From Halopseudomonas xinjiangensis (GTDB lineage: Bacteria; Pseudomonadota; Gammaproteobacteria; Pseudomonadales; Pseudomonadaceae): a stretch of 64,000 nucleotides of DNA. Under the pieces are notes generated by a model. That model saw only the letters and a list, made by a program, of their open reading frames with translations, was not told where the DNA came from and made no database searches. Of the stretch, positions 6,294 through 14,068 are shown piece by piece. The stretch is from NCBI RefSeq assembly GCF_900104945.1, contig NZ_LT629736.1, positions 2,232,001-2,296,000 of the forward strand, read 5' to 3'. The translations under genes were made by a program, and so were the position numbers. Position 1 is the stretch's first letter, and the number at the start of each line of letters is the position of its first letter.

Positions 6294-8018
6294 TCAGCGC
6301 GCCAGCAGATAAGCCACCGTGGCCGCGAGCACCGCCGAGATGGCCTGCCAGAACGCTACCGGTTTTCGCTCGATAAGCGGTGGCCGGCTACGATGCAGCA
6401 GGCTCTGATTGGGATGCCTCAGGTCGTAGACGAACTCGGACAGTTCAGCGTAGCGCTTGGCCGGATTCGGATGCACGGCGCGCCGCAGCACGTCATCGAC
6501 CCAGGCTGGTATGTCGCGCTTGTCATGCAACACCGAGCGGTATACCAGGCGGTTCTGTGCTGCCCGCGTCTGAGACCGGGCAACCTGGGCGCCGTAGGGA
6601 AGCTGTCCGCTGAGCATCTGATAGGTTATGACGCCGAGCGAGTAGATGTCCGATCTTGGCGAGCCACCCTCGCCCAGAAAATACTCAGGCGCCGCGTATT
6701 GAGCGGTGCCGAGCCGTGCAGTGTCCGCCGGCTGGGAGCTGTCCTCTATCCCAGCCACCCGAGCCGAGCCGAAATCGATGATCTTCACCGTACCGCTGTG
6801 ATCGACCATTACGTTGGCCGGTCGCAAATCCTGATGCAGCATCTCCAGCCGGTGAAAAGCACGCAATCCCTTGGCAATCTGCTCGACGATCCCGCGTACC
6901 GTTTCAAGGTTGGGTTGTGGGTGGTCGATCATCCATTGAGCCAGGGTCTGGCCCGGAATGTATTCAGTCACCGTATACAGGGCGGTTCTACGCCGGCTCG
7001 GCGGAAAGGTCCGCAGCACATGGAGGTTGTCGATGCGCCGGGCAATCCATTCCTCGGTCAGAAAGCGCTCCAGGTGCGGCACATCGTGTTGCAGATCGAC
7101 CGACGGCGCCTTGAGAATGACTTCCGCACCGCTTTCCGGATCAATAGCCAGATAGACATGACTGCGGCTGCTGGCGTGCAGATGCCGCACGATGCGGTAG
7201 CCATCGATCGTCGCCCTCGGCTCCAGAACCGGAGGCAACGGCAGGTCCGACAACTGCTGCTGAAATTCCCCTGCGCCGCTGGCCGGCAGGCTGTCGATGC
7301 GCACCAGCTGGGCAGTAAGGTTGTCGTCGCTTCCCTGCTGCAGCGCCTCTGATACGAGGCGACGAGCCGCCTGGTCCAGGTCACCGTCATCACGTTGTAG
7401 CGTATCGACGATGAACGCCTCGCTGAGAAACTCGTAGACGCCATCGGTTGCCAGGAGAAACAGATCGCCCGGTTCGAGCTGGACGCTGTGGTAGTCGATC
7501 TCCAGATGCGGGTTTATCCCCAACGCGCGGGCCAGATAGCTCTTCTCGCGGGATACCCAGAACCGATGATCATTGGTGAGTTGTTCCAGACGGGCATCGC
7601 GCAGCCGATAGATACGCGCATCGCCAATGTGGAACAAGTGAGCGGTGGTTGATTTGATCACCAGTGCGCTAAAGGTGCACACATAACCCTTGTCACGATC
7701 GTAGCGGTACTGGCTCTGGCGTGTCTGTGCATAGAGCCACGAGTTGATCGCTACCAGTACACGCTGAGCGGACTTTTTTACCGACCAGGTCTCCGAGGTG
7801 CAGAAATAGTCTTCGAGAAAGCCTGTCACCGCAGCCTGGCTGGCGATGTGACTCACCTCGCTGCTGCTGATGCCATCGGCCAGGGCCACCGCGACCCCCT
7901 TTGCGGTCAGCTGCGGCTCGCGAGGAAGGTAGGCGCCATGAAAGTCCTGGTTGCCTGGCTTGCAGCCTTTGTCAGAGTACCGCCCTACGGTCACGCCAAG
8001 GTGGTTGGTCATTTTCAT
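6294..8018 (-). CDS. Fused PP2C phosphatase / Ser-Thr protein kinase of the nitrite operon
   Basis: 574 residues. Residues 1-240 form a PP2C-type phosphatase domain (DKGCKPGNQDFHGAY, ALADGISSSEVSH, FHIGDARIYRLRD, LATDGVYEFLS, GSDDNLTAQLV, carrying the metal-binding Asp residues). Residues about 270-530 form a Hanks-type kinase: VILKAPSVD holds the ATP-site Lys, MLHQDLRPANVMV the catalytic Asp397, and IIDFGSARV the DFG motif. A single membrane helix ends the protein (AFWQAISAVLAATVAYLLA). Similar PP2C-kinase fusions sit in nitrate/nitrite assimilation clusters of pseudomonads, but their substrates are unknown to me. Last gene of the nirB operon, 37 bases after the transporter. Confidence 0.92.
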   Translation of the reverse strand: MKMTNHLGVTVGRYSDKGCKPGNQDFHGAYLPREPQLTAKGVAVALADGISSSEVSHIASQAAVTGFLEDYFCTSETWSVKKSAQRVLVAINSWLYAQTRQSQYRYDRDKGYVCTFSALVIKSTTAHLFHIGDARIYRLRDARLEQLTNDHRFWVSREKSYLARALGINPHLEIDYHSVQLEPGDLFLLATDGVYEFLSEAFIVDTLQRDDGDLDQAARRLVSEALQQGSDDNLTAQLVRIDSLPASGAGEFQQQLSDLPLPPVLEPRATIDGYRIVRHLHASSRSHVYLAIDPESGAEVILKAPSVDLQHDVPHLERFLTEEWIARRIDNLHVLRTFPPSRRRTALYTVTEYIPGQTLAQWMIDHPQPNLETVRGIVEQIAKGLRAFHRLEMLHQDLRPANVMVDHSGTVKIIDFGSARVAGIEDSSQPADTARLGTAQYAAPEYFLGEGGSPRSDIYSLGVITYQMLSGQLPYGAQVARSQTRAAQNRLVYRSVLHDKRDIPAWVDDVLRRAVHPNPAKRYAELSEFVYDLRHPNQSLLHRSRPPLIERKPVAFWQAISAVLAATVAYLLAR

Positions 8019-8055: not shown

Positions 8056-8868
8056 TTAGTTATATGCGCGCTTCGGTGCAGTTCGCACGTGCGTTGCGTA
8101 AAGCGTCAGCCCGGTGAAGGCCAGACCACCCACCAGGTTGCCCAGTGCGGTGGGTATCTCGTTCCAGAGCATGTAGTCCATGACCGAGAAGTTACCGCCC
8201 ATGATCATTGCAGACGGGAACAGGAACATGTTGACCACCGAATGCTCGAACCCCATGTAGAAGAACAGCATGATTGGCATCCACATGGCGATCGCCTTAC
8301 CGCTGACCGAGGTGGAAATCATCGCGCCGACGACGCCCATCGACACCATCCAGTTACACAGCATGCCGCGCAGGAGAATGGTCGCCCAACCGGCCGTGCC
8401 GAACTCGGCATAACCCAATGTCCGGTCTTCACCGATATGCGAAATGCGTTTGCCGATCTCACCCGGCTCGATCGAAAAGCCATACGTGAAGACGAATGCC
8501 ATCATGAACGCTACCGTCAGCGCGCCGGCGAAATTACCCAGAAATACCAGCCCCCAGTTGCGCAGAACTCCGCCGACAGTCACACCCGGTCGCTTGTCCA
8601 GCAATGCCAGTGGCGCCAGCACGAACACACCGGTCAGCAGGTCGAAGCCCATCAGGTACAGCATGATGAAACCGACCGGGAAGAACGACGCGCCAAGCAA
8701 CGGCGAGCCGGTCTGCACGGTAATGGAAACGGCAAACACCGCGGCCAGCGACAAAATGGCACCGGCCATGAACGCGCGAATCAGCGTGTCCCGGGTGGAC
8801 ATGAAGATTTTCGACTCGCCAGAGTCGACCATCTTGGTGACGAATTCCGAAGGCATCAAATAGGACAT
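8056..8868 (-). CDS. nirC: Formate/nitrite transporter family channel, probably nitrite
   Basis: 270 residues, six predicted membrane segments, FNT family. LGASFFPVGFIMLYLMGFDLLTG, NWGLVFLGNFAGA, CNWMVSMGVVGAMIS and GFEHSVVNMFLFPSAM are family signatures; the His in FEHSV corresponds to the conserved pore histidine. FNT pentamers pass small monovalent anions. The position between nirD and the kinase makes nitrite the likely substrate. I start at 8868 (MSYLMPSEF), the usual N-terminus for the family; the open frame extends 24 codons further into nirD but adds non-family sequence. The gap to nirD is 46 bases. Confidence 0.88.
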   Translation of the reverse strand: MSYLMPSEFVTKMVDSGESKIFMSTRDTLIRAFMAGAILSLAAVFAVSITVQTGSPLLGASFFPVGFIMLYLMGFDLLTGVFVLAPLALLDKRPGVTVGGVLRNWGLVFLGNFAGALTVAFMMAFVFTYGFSIEPGEIGKRISHIGEDRTLGYAEFGTAGWATILLRGMLCNWMVSMGVVGAMISTSVSGKAIAMWMPIMLFFYMGFEHSVVNMFLFPSAMIMGGNFSVMDYMLWNEIPTALGNLVGGLAFTGLTLYATHVRTAPKRAYN

Positions 8869-8914
8869 GTGAACGTTCTCGCGTATGAAATTGCTTTGGT
8901 GATCGGCGCTGGCA

Positions 8915-9316
8915 TCAAACCAGGCCGACCTCGACCACATCGCCCGTTATCCGAGCCGGCCAGACCTGCAGGCTCTGCTCGGGATATTCGACACAACTGC
9001 CGTCTTCCAGACGGAAGTGCTGCTTATAGAGTGGCGAGGCGACAACCAAATCGCCCTGCACTTGGCCGACCAGGCCCCGGCCAATCACATTCGCACCGGA
9101 TTTCGGATCACGGTTCTCGATAGCGAACACCTGCTCGCCGTCCTCGGTAGCGGGAAGGTAAAACAGCGCTACCTGCCGGCCCTCGAGCCAGGCGACCACG
9201 CCGGAGTTGGCGACCAGGTCGGCGCGCTTGCACAGAGCTTTCCACTCGGACGGAGCCTGGACAATGGCGGCATCGGTGCGGCCGGGTTCGATACGTGCGG
9301 CTTGGATCGAGCTCAT
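8915..9316 (-). CDS. nirD: Assimilatory nitrite reductase (NADH) small subunit
   Basis: 133 residues, Rieske-fold NirD. EWKALCKRADLVANSGVVAW, VALFYLPATEDGEQVFAIEN, RDPKSGANVIGRGLVG and SPLYKQHFRLEDGSCVEYPE follow the family pattern. The Rieske Cys/His cluster ligands are absent, as expected for NirD. It partners NirB in six-electron reduction of nitrite to ammonium in the cytoplasm. Its ATG shares one base with the nirB stop (TGATG), so translation is coupled. Confidence 0.95.
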   Translation of the reverse strand: MSSIQAARIEPGRTDAAIVQAPSEWKALCKRADLVANSGVVAWLEGRQVALFYLPATEDGEQVFAIENRDPKSGANVIGRGLVGQVQGDLVVASPLYKQHFRLEDGSCVEYPEQSLQVWPARITGDVVEVGLV

Positions 9317-11871
9317 CAGGCGATCTCCTCGGTTTTGATCAGATGAAGTTCGGAGGCATTAACCGGGCGACGCTGGCCGCGCTCCTTGACGAAATGGATG
9401 TCCGGATCGCCGCGCTCGTCGTTGACGAAGGTGCGGAAACGCTTGAGTTTCTCCGGGTCGTTCAACGCATTGGCCCATTCACATTCATAGCGATCGACTA
9501 CCAGCTGCATCTGGCTTTCCAGCTCTTCGCCCAGGCCGAGGCTGTCATTGATGATGACGTCCTTCAGATAGTCGAGACCGCCCTCCAGGCTTTCGCGCCA
9601 GACGGAGGTGCGCTGCAGCTTGTCTGCGGTGCGAACGTAGAACATCAGGAAGCGGTCGATGTAGCGCACCAGCGTCTCGTCATCGAGGTCGGTGGCAAAC
9701 AGCTCGGCGTGGCGCGGACGCATGCCACCGTTACCGGCGACGTAGAGGTTCCATCCGTTTTCAGTCGCGATCACCCCGATGTCCTTGCTCTGCGCTTCAG
9801 CACATTCGCGGGTGCATCCGGAGACGCCGAATTTGATCTTGTGCGGCGAGCGCAAACCCTTGTAGCGATCTTCCAACCGAAGAGCCATGCTCACGCTGTC
9901 CTGCACGCCGTAGCGGCACCAGGTGCTGCCGACACAGGATTTGACCGTGCGCAGCGACTTGCCATAGGCGTGGCCGGTTTCGAATCCGGCGGCGATCAGC
10001 TCGCCCCATATGTCCGGCAGCTCGTGCAGCTGGGCGCCGAACAGGTCGATGCGCTGGCCGCCGGTGATCTTGGTGTACAGGTCATACTTTTTCGCCACCT
10101 GACCCAGCACGATGAGCTTCTCGGGTGTGATCTCGCCACCTGCGATGCGCGGCACGATGGAATAGGTGCCGTTTTTCTGCATGTTGGCCATGAAGGTGTC
10201 GTTGGTGTCCTGCAGCGGAATCAACAGCGGATCGGTGATCGGCTGGTTCCAGCAAGATGCCAGGATCGAGCCCACAGCCGGCTTGCAGGTATAGCAACCA
10301 TGGTGACCGCGACCATGCTTGGCCAGTAGCTCGTCGAAGCTGTGAATGTTCTCGACCCGCACGATGCCGTACAGCTCCTGGCGGGTGTAGGCAAAGTGCT
10401 CGCAAAGGCTCTTGTCGACTTCCACGCCGCGAGCGGTCAGCTCGTGCTCGAAAACCTGCTTGAGTAGTGCGCTGCAGCCGCCACAGCCGGTAGCGGCCTT
10501 GGTTTGTCCCTTCAGCTCGCCGAGATCGGTGCAGCCGGCATCAACAGCGCAGCACACCGCGCCCTTGGTGACGTTGTGGCAGGAGCAGATGGTGGCGGTG
10601 TCTGGCAATGCATCAGCGCCCAGTGTCGGTGCACCGTCAGACATCGGCAGAATCAGGCTAGACGGATCCGCAGGTAGCTTGATGCCGTTCTGGGCGTATT
10701 GCAGCAGGGTGTCGTAATAGCTGTTGTCACCGACCAATACCGCGCCGATCACGTGTTTGCCATCAGCTGATACCACCAACCGGCGGTAGGTCGAGGTGGC
10801 TTCATCGATGAACCGGTAGCTCTTGGCGCCCGGCGTGGCGGCATGCGCATCGCCGATCGAACCGACGTCAACGCCGAGCAGTTTCAGCTTGGTCGACATG
10901 TCAGCACCGGTGAAGGGATCGTAATCGACGCCGGCGATCTGCTTGGCCAGGTTGCGGGCCATGGTGTAGCCCGGCGCGACCAGTCCGAAGATGCTGCCGT
11001 TCCAGGAGGCGCACTCACCGATGGCATGTATTGCCGGATCGCTGGTACGGCAATGATTGTCGATCATCACACCGCCGCGCTCGGCGACTTCCAGGCCACA
11101 GGCACGTGCCAGGGCATCCTGCGGCCGAATGCCGGCAGAAAAGACGATCAGATCGGTTTCGAGAAACTCGCCGTCATTGAAGTTCATGCGATAGGCATGC
11201 TCTTCCCCAGCCACGATTTCCTTGGTGGCTCGCGCCAGATGTACGGAAACACCCAGTGCCTCGATACGCGCCTTCAGTGCTGCGCCACCATCGGCATCCA
11301 GCTGTACCGGCATCAGGCGTGGAGCGAACTCGACGACATGTGCCTCGATGCCCAGCGACTTCAGAGCATTGGCTGCTTCCAGACCCAGCAGACCGCCGCC
11401 GACCACCACACCACGGCGCGCCGTGGCAGCGGCTGCGCGGATACCGTCGAGGTCTTCGAGCGTGCGGTACACCAGGCGCGAATTGCCTTCCGCACCGGGG
11501 ATCGGTGGCACGAAGGGATAGGAGCCGGTAGCCAGAATCAGCTGATCGTAGGCCTGGCGGCCTTCGCTGGTGATGACTTCCTTGCGCTCGCGGTCGATCT
11601 CAAGAACCTGCACGCCCAGATGCAGGCGCACCCCGTTGCAGTCGTAAAAATCGGAGTCGCACATCGCCAGCGAGTCGGCGTCGCGTCCGTCAAAGTATTC
11701 GGAGAGATGCACGCGGTCGTACGCACGCTGCTTTTCCTCACCAAAAACATGAATGTCATAGCGCGACAGAGCGCCCTGTTCGATCAATTGTTCGACGCAA
11801 TGGTGGCCGACCATGCCGTTGCCGATGACGACCAATGTCTCGCTCTTGATCGAAGTAACGATGGAGTTCAT
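9316..11871 (-). CDS. nirB: Assimilatory nitrite reductase (NADH) large subunit
   Basis: 851 residues. In order: FAD/NAD(P)H pyridine nucleotide-disulphide oxidoreductase domain (VVIGNGMVGHHCVEQL; second Rossmann motif GVVVGGGLLGLEAANALKSL), a BFD-like [2Fe-2S] segment (TICSCHNVTKGAVC, GCGGCSALL), a second Cys-rich segment (HHGCYTCKP), and the nitrite/sulfite reductase core. That core carries CVGSTWC (about 645) and GCTREC (about 685), the four Cys that bind 4Fe-4S and siroheme. Reduces nitrite to ammonium for assimilation. GAGGAAAG lies just upstream of the ATG at 11871. First gene of nirB-nirD-nirC-kinase; a leader terminator and sigma-54 promoter lie upstream. Confidence 0.96.
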   Translation of the reverse strand: MNSIVTSIKSETLVVIGNGMVGHHCVEQLIEQGALSRYDIHVFGEEKQRAYDRVHLSEYFDGRDADSLAMCDSDFYDCNGVRLHLGVQVLEIDRERKEVITSEGRQAYDQLILATGSYPFVPPIPGAEGNSRLVYRTLEDLDGIRAAAATARRGVVVGGGLLGLEAANALKSLGIEAHVVEFAPRLMPVQLDADGGAALKARIEALGVSVHLARATKEIVAGEEHAYRMNFNDGEFLETDLIVFSAGIRPQDALARACGLEVAERGGVMIDNHCRTSDPAIHAIGECASWNGSIFGLVAPGYTMARNLAKQIAGVDYDPFTGADMSTKLKLLGVDVGSIGDAHAATPGAKSYRFIDEATSTYRRLVVSADGKHVIGAVLVGDNSYYDTLLQYAQNGIKLPADPSSLILPMSDGAPTLGADALPDTATICSCHNVTKGAVCCAVDAGCTDLGELKGQTKAATGCGGCSALLKQVFEHELTARGVEVDKSLCEHFAYTRQELYGIVRVENIHSFDELLAKHGRGHHGCYTCKPAVGSILASCWNQPITDPLLIPLQDTNDTFMANMQKNGTYSIVPRIAGGEITPEKLIVLGQVAKKYDLYTKITGGQRIDLFGAQLHELPDIWGELIAAGFETGHAYGKSLRTVKSCVGSTWCRYGVQDSVSMALRLEDRYKGLRSPHKIKFGVSGCTRECAEAQSKDIGVIATENGWNLYVAGNGGMRPRHAELFATDLDDETLVRYIDRFLMFYVRTADKLQRTSVWRESLEGGLDYLKDVIINDSLGLGEELESQMQLVVDRYECEWANALNDPEKLKRFRTFVNDERGDPDIHFVKERGQRRPVNASELHLIKTEEIA

Positions 11872-11911
11872 AGCCTTTCCTCAGTCGAAGCGTTTGCCGG
11901 CACCGCCGGCC

Positions 11912-11956
11912 AAAACAAAAAGGCGCCTGGAATCTCTGCAGACTCCAGGCGCCTTT
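11912..11956 (-). terminator. Intrinsic terminator in the nirB leader (probable antitermination target)
   Basis: On the minus strand AAAGGCGCCTGGA (11956-11944) pairs perfectly with TCCAGGCGCCTTT (11931-11919) across a 12-base loop, followed directly by a T-rich tract (TTTTTGTTTTG). It lies about 40 bases before the nirB ATG and downstream of the sigma-54 promoter, so it would stop transcription before the operon unless relieved. Nitrate/nitrite assimilation operons of Proteobacteria are known to use ANTAR proteins (NasR, NasT) to antiterminate at such leaders. The regulator itself is not in this window. Confidence 0.88.
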
Positions 11957-12046
11957 GCCTGATATTCATTTGGTTTGTTCAGCACCATCAGGCAGCGTCG
12001 CCGATGTTGCTGGTCCCTTTATTGGTCGCCGTTGACCGAGGGACAC

Positions 12047-12064
12047 CTGCGAAGCATCACGCAG
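12047..12064 (-). other. Leader RNA hairpin upstream of the nirB terminator
   Basis: On the minus strand CTGCG and CGCAG pair around the loop TGATGCTT, a few bases after the predicted transcription start. It is placed where the first hairpin of an ANTAR recognition pair would be. The loop is eight bases unless the T-T closes it to six, so it does not clearly fit the known hexaloop rule. Confidence 0.45.
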
Positions 12065-12079
12065 ATCTTGCGTATGAAT

Positions 12080-12097
12080 AAGCAACGGCTGTGCCAA
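12080..12097 (-). promoter_or_regulatory. Sigma-54 (RpoN) promoter of the nirBD operon
   Basis: The minus strand reads TTGGCACAGCCGTTGCTT, matching the consensus TGGCAC-N5-TTGCW with the GG (12095-12094) and GC (12083-12082) exactly 10 bases apart. Transcription should start near 12070, giving a leader of about 200 bases. RpoN dependence implies activation by an enhancer-binding protein, most likely NtrC under nitrogen limitation. I could not find a convincing NtrC dyad by eye. Confidence 0.9.
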
Positions 12098-12406
12098 TAC
12101 GCCTCAAGTCGGCCGACTGTCGATTACCAGATCACCTTATGCGACTGAATATTAAGGTCTTTTATAAAATCCAGAGACAGCCAAAGAACCGCAGGAATGT
12201 GTATAAAGGTCGTTTCGGCGCGCTTGCCCAAACGAACCAGAACTGTGCGCCGGAGGAGCAGACTCCCGTTTTTGGTGCGCTTTTGAAAAGTTCCCTTCCC
12301 CCGATGCCGTTCGTCGCGAGACGTTGCAAAAGCCTGCGCGAAAACGAGAATGGTCAGCTCGACAGCGCCACCCGACCCTCCCTGCCGGTGGACAATGGAG
12401 CAAGAC
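12098..12406. other. Intergenic region between the nirB promoter and the phosphorylase-like gene
   Basis: No convincing gene on either strand. The part at 12140-12172 is markedly AT-rich and lies roughly 70-100 bases upstream of the predicted nirB start, where IHF often bends DNA at sigma-54 promoters; this is inference. Promoter elements for the rightward gene were not recognised. Confidence 0.4.
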
Positions 12407-14068
12407 ATGACGGATACCACCAACTGGCCCCTGCCCTATCGCGTCAACCCTGCGTATGCGCGCAAGGTTGCCTATTTTTCCATGGAATTTGCCATCGATC
12501 AGGCGCTGAAAATCTACTCAGGCGGCCTGGGCTTTCTGGCCGGATCGCACATGCGCAGTGCTTATCAGCTGCGTCAGAACGTGATCGGCGTCGGCATACT
12601 GTGGAAGTACGGCTATTACGATCAGGCGCGCAATGCGGACCAGACCCTGCGCGTGGATTTCACCAAGAAGTACTATCCGTTCCTGACCGACCCGGGCATC
12701 ACCGTCACGGTGCAGGTCAATGGTCACGATGTGAAAGTGAAGGCATTGTGTCTCCCGGCACAGACATTCGGCAGCGCGCCGCTCTATCTGCTCACCACCG
12801 ACATCCCGGAAAACGATCATCTGGCGCGCACCATCACCCACTGCCTGTATGACGTCGAACCTTCCGCACGCATAGCCCAGAGCATCGTACTGGGCCTGGG
12901 CGGAGCCAAGGTGGTCGAAGCAATGGGCGGCGCTGAGCTATACCATATGAATGAAGCGCATGCCCTGCCCCTGGCCTTTCATCTGATGGATCGCCTGGGT
13001 GAGGCAAGCGAAGTGCGCAAGCGCATCGTCTTCACCACGCATACACCCGAGAAAGCCGGTAACGAAGAGCATGAGACCTCGTTCCTGAAGCGCATGGGTT
13101 TCTTCGGTGCGCTCAACCATGAGCAGGAAGTGAACCTCACCGGCATTCACGAGCACCTGTTCAGTCATACGCTGGCAGCGCTGCGCGTTTCCCATGCATG
13201 TAACGGGGTATCCCGGTTACACGGGGCGGTGGCGAACCAGATGTGGGAAGGCAATGATGGCATCTGCTCCATCGAGGCGATCACCAATTCACAGAATGCC
13301 TTGTTCTGGCAGGACAAGAAGCTGCGTCAGGCTCTCGATCGCAACGACCCCAAGCGGCTGATTACGCGTAAGAAAGAAATGAAAGACGATCTGTTCCGCA
13401 TCGTCGCTGATCAGACCGGCAAACTGTTCAATCGGGACGTGCTGACCATCGTCTGGGCCCGCCGTTTTGCGCACTACAAGCGCGCCACCCTGTTGTTGCA
13501 TGATTTTCATCGCTTTCTGAACCTGATCGAGCGCACCGATCGCCCAGTGCAGATCATCTGGGCCGGCAAACCGTTCCCGTTCGATCACGATGCCATCAGC
13601 GTATTCAACGGGCTGGTACGACTGTCTCGCAAGAAGCGCAACATAGCCGTGTTGACCGGGTACGAAATCGAGCTATCGCGCCAGCTCAAGCAAGGCGCGG
13701 ATGTCTGGCTGAACACGCCCGTGCGGCCACGGGAAGCGTCGGGCACCAGCGGGATGACCGCTGCCATGAATGGTGCAGTGAACTTCTCGATCAATGATGG
13801 CTGGATTCCTGAGTTTGCCAAAGACGGTGAAAACAGCTTCATCATCCCGGTTACCGAGCCGAAGCTGAGCGAGCATGAGCAGAACGAGGCGGATTATCAG
13901 AATCTGATGTCGATCTTTGAAGACCGGATCATCCCGCTGTATTACGACGAGCCGCAGCGCTGGAACGAGATCGCCATGGCCAGCATGCGGGATGTGACGC
14001 CGGCTTTCGATTCCGATCGCATGGCTCGGGAGTATTACGAGAAGCTTTACTCTGCCAAGCTGGGCTGA
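12407..14068 (+). CDS. Alpha-glucan phosphorylase-like GT35 protein, PLP lysine replaced
   Basis: 553 residues, shorter than classical glycogen phosphorylases (about 800). Conserved GT35 features are present: VAYFSMEFAIDQALKIYSGG near the start, HMNEAHALPLAFHLM, FTTHTPEKAGNEEHE, IVWARRFAHYKRATLLLHD, QIIWAGKPFPFDHDA, and near the C-terminus RPREASGTSGMTAAMNGAVN. In true phosphorylases the residue after GTSGM (or GTGNM) is the Lys that binds pyridoxal phosphate; here the codon is ACC (Thr), so phosphorolysis by the usual mechanism is doubtful. GGAG lies 6 bases before the ATG, supporting this start. It is divergent from the nir operon; no other glycogen gene is nearby. It may use a glucan or sugar nucleotide differently, but I cannot assign a reaction. 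Confidence 0.82.
   Translation: MTDTTNWPLPYRVNPAYARKVAYFSMEFAIDQALKIYSGGLGFLAGSHMRSAYQLRQNVIGVGILWKYGYYDQARNADQTLRVDFTKKYYPFLTDPGITVTVQVNGHDVKVKALCLPAQTFGSAPLYLLTTDIPENDHLARTITHCLYDVEPSARIAQSIVLGLGGAKVVEAMGGAELYHMNEAHALPLAFHLMDRLGEASEVRKRIVFTTHTPEKAGNEEHETSFLKRMGFFGALNHEQEVNLTGIHEHLFSHTLAALRVSHACNGVSRLHGAVANQMWEGNDGICSIEAITNSQNALFWQDKKLRQALDRNDPKRLITRKKEMKDDLFRIVADQTGKLFNRDVLTIVWARRFAHYKRATLLLHDFHRFLNLIERTDRPVQIIWAGKPFPFDHDAISVFNGLVRLSRKKRNIAVLTGYEIELSRQLKQGADVWLNTPVRPREASGTSGMTAAMNGAVNFSINDGWIPEFAKDGENSFIIPVTEPKLSEHEQNEADYQNLMSIFEDRIIPLYYDEPQRWNEIAMASMRDVTPAFDSDRMAREYYEKLYSAKLG

Follow-up and report, generated by a model that had tools for sequence, protein, structure and literature searches.

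A predicted two-input leader of nirB in Halopseudomonas xinjiangensis, with a sigma-54 promoter and an ANTAR-type antiterminator

Among the closest described systems is NalA, the leader of nirBD, which the parts of the published account drawn on here place under the control of NasT and of sigma-54/NtrC (PMC12830290). The ANTAR target, in the published accounts as far as excerpted, consists of two hairpins, with a linker of 2-25 nt between the hairpins of the two loops and a C-G loop-closing pair that derives from SELEX with NasR. Excerpts of the work on EutV describe dimers that contact the hexaloops one after another, and report that 20 additional nt between the loops abolished antitermination (PMC8934654); in the published model, as excerpted, it is P1 that the ANTAR dimer contacts first. 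In Paracoccus, according to the portions of the accounts used, NasT is set free from NasS in response to nitrate or nitrite (PMC5424462, PMC3795266).

The 64-kb stretch of DNA analysed here (hereafter the window) encodes on its minus strand the large subunit of a siroheme nitrite reductase, NirB (9316-11871; 851 aa; ATG at 11871-11869; Pfam NIR_SIR, Pyr_redox_2 and Fer2_BFD), followed by a nirD-like Rieske protein (8915-9316; Pfam Rieske_2) and a formate/nitrite transporter (8056-8940; Pfam Form_Nir_trans). A leader of about 200 nt lies between a sigma-54 site and nirB on the same strand, within 12096-11872, and the order of elements from 12100 to 11872 is sigma-54 element, 5' hairpin, three hairpins designated H1, H2 and H3, the last overlapping a terminator, a GCCGGC hairpin, ribosome site and ATG. 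The observation of the sequence-only reading, namely a sigma-54 site, a leader of this length and a terminator ahead of nirB, is confirmed.

The promoter element, TGGCACAGCCGTTGCT (12081-12096, minus strand), has the form GG-N10-GC and predicts a transcription start near 12070. It is the sole exact match to the sigma-54 consensus in the whole window, where 0.09 were expected from shuffles; with one mismatch permitted the scan returned 3 elements against 2.83 expected, a count close to chance, so that the exact match alone is informative. A sigma-54-like element also precedes nirB in 80/80 of the named relatives introduced below and in all 12 loci of the genus sample that lack the terminator. 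RpoN and NtrC (783.8 bits) are both encoded in the window's own genome, as expected for an NtrC-activated sigma-54 promoter. Possible NtrC half-sites lie in the region CGCACAGTTCTGGTTCG (approximately 12229-12250, minus strand), matching 8 of 12 letters; in an NtrC enhancer scan of the window alone, a best site of this quality had P 0.50 in shuffles and was not significant, which counts against a two-input leader.

The leader from 12070 to 11869 folds at -91.6 kcal/mol (z -5.6), and its minimum-energy fold opens with a 5' hairpin (12045-12066, minus strand, as are all elements that follow) corresponding to the early hairpin proposed from the sequence. H1 (12013-12044) has the core GGTC-AACGGC-GACC (12037-12024) within an outer stem GTCCC/GGGAC, and its hexaloop carries A at position 1 and G at position 4 (A1/G4). 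H2 (11980-12012), with the core GGC-GACGCT-GCC (12002-11991) within an outer stem CAGCA/TGCTG, has a hexaloop in which G1 replaces A1 and G4 is retained; the single-sequence fold of the window closes H2 further, down to a tetraloop. The outer stem of H2 adjoins that of H1, and 17 nt separate it from H3 (11945-11962; TCAGGC-AAAGGC-GCCTGG), a putative antiterminator hairpin with an A1/G4 hexaloop. The intrinsic terminator (11912-11956) comprises a stem-loop at 11956-11919, in which 17 pairs were counted, and a T-rich tract. Because H3 (11962-11945) shares sequence with the 5' arm of this stem-loop, the two are mutually exclusive; H3 alone folds at -8.5 kcal/mol, as against -32.1 kcal/mol for the terminator stretch 11968-11915 (z -6.5). 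A further hairpin, GCCGGC-GGT-GCCGGC (11896-11910), was found in sequence and fold between the terminator and the ribosome site, and GCCGGC repeats occupy the equivalent place in some relatives (e.g., L087 and L090). H1, H2 and H3 had not figured in the earlier description of the leader.

Several features that characterize ANTAR-responsive leaders can be recognized in this arrangement: two A1/G4 hexaloop hairpins (H1, AACGGC, and H3, AAAGGC), a C-G loop-closing pair in each of H1, H2 and H3, and a last hairpin that overlaps an intrinsic terminator. The position before nirB and under a sigma-54 promoter is that of P11/NalA. The stems of the two consensus loops, H1 and H3, lie 61 nt apart. A simple scan for terminator-like sites over 10000-14000 returned 2 against 3.1 expected, not above chance, and would by itself leave room for the view that the terminator and hairpins arose by chance and serve no regulatory function; with the simple count at chance level, relatives were compared instead.

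The comparison included the best 80 of 570 NirB relatives, taken with their upstream DNA (the named relatives, titled Pseudomonas, Stutzerimonas, Halopseudomonas, Serpens and Pseudomonadaceae bacterium), and a genus sample of 37 genomes, 25 of which contain a window-type nirB. Five of the named records duplicate genomes of the genus sample, and three of these carry the title Halopseudomonas. An H3 core with a T run after it was present in 77/80 named loci, and a sigma-54 element combined with a stricter H3 pattern in 89/110 upstream regions scanned by script, the remainder including terminator-less genes and paralogues; the script patterns overlooked L043, whose H3 is a variant form and which has both a leader and an ANTAR protein. 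Across 35 aligned relatives the terminator is conserved, with 97.4% of pair cells paired and two-sided changes numbering 44, where shuffles gave 14.0. This covariation refutes a chance origin in practice and, along with the loop conservation and the joint loss with the ANTAR protein reported below, leaves that view with next to no probability.

The sequence-only reading had suggested a search for nasT/nasS elsewhere in the genome, and had held that a genome without any ANTAR protein would speak against it. The window's genome (one contig, 3.54 Mb) yields one ANTAR match, a 190-aa protein with receiver-like and ANTAR domains (Pfam) and thus of NasT type (nasT, L001 2049-1477, minus strand), whose gene adjoins that of an NMT1-like protein of NasS type; a cognate ANTAR protein is therefore encoded, and the objection does not apply. 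After nasT/nasS come genes for a nitrate-type transporter, a PP2C-kinase, a second NirB and a nitrate reductase, and a cobA-like gene (names assigned by eye). A PP2C phosphatase-Ser/Thr kinase fusion follows the nitrite/nitrate genes in both operons, at L002 7416-9122 and, downstream in the nirB gene series, at window 6294-8018, with the Pfam assignment covering the window copy only. The gap that separates nasT from the nitrate transporter gene (L001 1477-1281, minus strand) holds another leader, in which a sigma-54-like site is accompanied by two A1/G4 hexaloops (GGCAGCC-AATGGC-GGTTGCC and CGAC-AACGAC-GTCG, by eye plus fold) and a stem followed by nine T. Tyr164 of EutV stacks on G4 in the excerpted account (PMC8934654); by eye, the window genome's NasT has His where this residue would lie, and Tyr is found in L125, L136 and L140.

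In some relatives NasT is replaced by a NasR-like NIT-ANTAR protein of roughly 430 aa, and those in which it is the only ANTAR protein keep H3 and the terminator, as might be expected if the leader answered a regulator of NasR (NIT-ANTAR) or AmiR type and not NasT. Yet NasT is the sole ANTAR match in the window genome, and the one NIT-domain protein (nitrate/nitrite sensing) encoded there, at L003 1267-2220 and about 11 kb from nasT, contains no ANTAR domain, making a regulator of that type highly improbable for this locus. By pattern, H1 was present in 61/64 loci of NasT genomes (60/63 distinct genomes once L088, from the same genome as L007, is set aside) and in 1/12 genomes with NIT-ANTAR only. 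This count ignores kinship and leaves out L049 (ambiguous) as well as L098 and L099 (the genomes of L052 and L030), and regulator class was assigned from match start and frame length, with a Pfam check on the window NasT and three NIT-ANTAR proteins only. It is suggestive of H1 going with the NasT-type regulator, an association confounded by kinship. On the same counts we gave up the view that the three-loop leader described below is shared by genomes with NIT-ANTAR proteins.

Leader and ANTAR protein co-occur without exception in the genomes compared. H3 and the terminator were found at 13/25 nirB loci of the genus sample, and all 13 of those genomes encode an ANTAR protein; at the other 12 loci the sigma-54 site is retained, H3 and the terminator are missing, and none of the genomes has an ANTAR match (Fisher 2e-7, kinship ignored). 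Among the 70 of 80 named genomes checked, 67 have the leader, all with an ANTAR protein, and three have neither; without the five duplicates, the named set adds 64 genomes with the leader and one without. Over 90 distinct genomes, which are not independent because of kinship and some of which are incomplete (e.g., G031, 79%), an ANTAR protein thus accompanies H3 plus terminator in 77/77 cases and is present in 0/13 genomes that lack them. The 12 genus loci without the terminator fall into two clades of the NirB tree, one with nine members and one with three, the smaller of which branches from within species that bear the leader. At least three separate losses of H3 and terminator are implied among the relatives. 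The clade of three (G017, G021 and G030) has kept a nitrate reductase 83-84% identical to that of the window genome. For the clade of nine, a nitrate reductase had no match at 1e-60 in seven genomes and a 48-49% homologue in two, so that leader loss there may simply follow the loss of nitrate assimilation. In G017 and G030, both without an ANTAR protein, the H3 pattern occurs elsewhere, away from nirB and with no T run. In G016 and G023, neither of which has a window-type nirB, an H3 plus terminator-like element lies in near-identical surroundings and lacks a sigma-54 site (L149 and L153).

These losses also bear on whether the terminated leader acts as a small RNA, with nirB controlled mainly at the promoter. 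Rfam does list the related P11 as a sRNA gene. Yet what is conserved across the overlap with the terminator is an ANTAR-type hairpin, and genomes that have lost the ANTAR protein have lost the terminator too. We consider a small RNA very unlikely as the main account of the leader; as a side role it is possible.

The folding and the search for conserved hexaloops that had been proposed revealed conserved hexaloops in H1 and H3. Between promoter and H3, 63/100 hexaloop hairpins (from 58 non-redundant leaders) are of the A1/G4 type, against a mean of 3.5 and a maximum of 10 in 200 shuffles. Upstream of H3, 89 leaders contain no further A1/G4 loop in 20 cases, one in 44, two in 24 and three in 1, all lower bounds, because the true-hexaloop filter drops loops with pairable ends. 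Thirty-five long leaders were aligned, selected on H3 and length, irrespective of their other loops (L074, with a long insertion, was removed from the 35 non-redundant long leaders, and L085, at 114 nt just below the limit, was added). The alignment displays three A1/G4 hexaloop hairpins: the H1 loop has A1 in 29/35, G1 in 5/35 and G4 in 33/35, the H2 loop A1 in 32/35, G1 in 3/35 and G4 in 34/35, and the H3 loop A1 and G4 in 35/35, in a set itself selected by H3. The remaining letters of the H1 and H2 loops are more variable than positions 1 and 4, and the loop closure is C-G in every relative with letters there (34 for H1, 35 for H2 and 35 for H3).

Covariation in this alignment is concentrated in the number of two-sided-change cells, 47 over the three stems against 18.8 in shuffles (0/500). 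Two-sided changes affect eight pairs, in H1 and H2, a number at most weakly above the 5.8 of shuffles (27/500), and there is no clear excess of further pair types in the aligned stems (20 against 18.8; 152/500). H3 shows no covariation because its sequence hardly varies. Pairing amounts to 88.7% in the true stem register and falls to 24-43% once the partner is slid. With a stricter filter, 19/25 leaders with two upstream A1/G4 loops have both loop gaps at 24-32 nt, and P. putida-type leaders contain H1 and H3 only, with 19-28 nt between them. A P11-type set was also compared, for which 30 loci were fetched, 28 of them with a T run, and 18 of these were aligned with L112 and L113, leaving out ten (L175, L180, L181, L182 and L185-L190), most of which lack H2. 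In the chosen 20, and for these only, three closely packed loops are seen, with H1 A1/G4 in 20/20 and H2 A1 in 18/20 and G4 in 19/20; covariation among these 20 is weak, at 3 two-sided cells where shuffles gave 0.9. Folds of L096, L099, L100 and L093 show no clear three-loop pattern, so that the array is not universal among leaders. Three putative gripping hairpins, rather than the textbook two, are often present in the leaders of this family. L074 (3158-3475, Pseudomonas resinovorans) offers a natural test of spacing, as an insertion of more than 100 nt separates its H1 from the H2 region.

Taken together, our preferred reading, to which we assign a probability of about 0.88, is that of a two-input nirBD leader, in which an NtrC/sigma-54 promoter would be combined with NasT antitermination at H3. 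It agrees with the two-key control by NtrC and an ANTAR antiterminator that the sequence-only reading had proposed, and is supported by comparison: RpoN, NtrC and NasT are encoded, and leader and ANTAR protein are concordant in 90/90 genomes. The elements, their conservation, the exclusion between H3 and terminator, and the joint loss with the ANTAR protein come from sequence and its comparison, and what we infer is where transcription starts, that NtrC and NasT bind, and that the response depends on nitrate. Under nitrogen limitation, phosphorylated NtrC would activate sigma-54 polymerase at 12096-12081, and the transcript would by default stop at the terminator (11956-11919). Once nitrate or nitrite has been detected, NasT would be set free by NasS, as in Paracoccus; NasT would bind the hexaloops, chiefly H3, tying up the 5' arm of the terminator, and polymerase would enter nirB. 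H1 may take up NasT ahead of H3, in the manner of P1 in the published model, and so may H2, provided that its G1 loop is still bound.

Against the two-input leader stand, besides the NtrC site at chance level, the lack of A1 in H2, which leaves the consensus loops 61 nt apart where the excerpted accounts give a linker of 2-25 nt, and a P11 (RF00625) score of 28.5 bits, below the curated gathering cut-off of 70. Other known RNAs in Rfam gave sub-threshold matches only, including narK at 15.8 bits, which was treated as chance. Alternatively, the leader in front of this nirB could be undergoing decay, with an altered H2 and weak NasT control, while the second nirB does the regulated work under a full P11-type leader. 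That gene does have such a leader (L112, C1:893214-893076 of the same genome), which scores 77.7 bits, over the curated cut-off, and has its own sigma-54-like site and three hexaloops; moreover, G1 is found in H2 of both the window and its nearest relative, L085. Decay is nonetheless improbable, for the promoter, H1, H3 and the terminator are all intact, and loops with G1 and retained G4 recur among the relatives at the frequencies given above for H1 and H2, which suggests that G1 is tolerated. If the G1 loop of H2 were dead, the distance between H1 and H3 would predict poor induction of the two-input leader; normal induction would mean that H2 works with G1, or that folding of the linker places H1 close to H3.

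As a more tentative proposal, which we regard as somewhat on the doubtful side, the NasT leaders of Pseudomonadaceae may form a three-hexaloop relay, in which NasT would land on nascent H1 and pass to H2 and H3, H1 being tied to NasT and mostly dispensable with NIT-ANTAR, and G1 being able to replace A1 in the middle loop. If true, such a relay would separate a model in which the dimer holds both loops from one in which it moves loop after loop. The three-loop array itself bears on this question of whether an ANTAR dimer needs to grip two loops simultaneously or moves from one to the next, for which leaders with and without H1 and H2, under NasT or NIT-ANTAR, are ready material.

Compared with described systems, the window leader is of a known kind, in a three-loop variant that is so far apparently undescribed; we recognized no description of a three-loop ANTAR leader in the literature searched, but Romeo 2012, Nie 2024 and Marogi 2024 lay outside the reach of that search, so that its novelty is not established. 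It resembles NalA/P11 of Pseudomonas (RF00625), as excerpted, in its place before nirB, its sigma-54 site, an AAAGGC hexaloop overlapping the terminator and NasT in the genome (PMC12830290), and differs from it in its low score, in the sequences of H1 and H2, in the G1 of H2 and in spacing, since the loops of its relatives lie about 25-30 nt apart where P11 loops are closely packed. Models of closely packed P11 score the window leader low, so that similar leaders may be missed. The two-key logic of nitrogen limitation plus nitrate is already known for nirBD in Pseudomonas; it is here extended to a divergent leader, and the joint loss of leader and ANTAR protein adds a natural test. As in the EutV dual-hexaloop target, in the parts of the accounts used (PMC3369931, PMC8934654), A1/G4 hexaloops are present and the last hairpin excludes the terminator, although that target has two loops and a short linker, whereas the window leader offers three loop positions, more widely spaced, under a sigma-54 promoter. 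The Klebsiella oxytoca nasF leader, as excerpted (PMC7496416), likewise has A1/G4 loops closed by C:G, and nitrate/nitrite control of nitrate assimilation genes is probably common to both, although nasF answers the one-component NIT-ANTAR sensor NasR and the window genome encodes NasS/NasT. NasS/NasT and a terminating leader are shared with the nasA leader of Paracoccus denitrificans, which, in the excerpted account (PMC5424462), serves nasABGHC and has two hairpins named HI and HII, whereas the window leader serves nirB.
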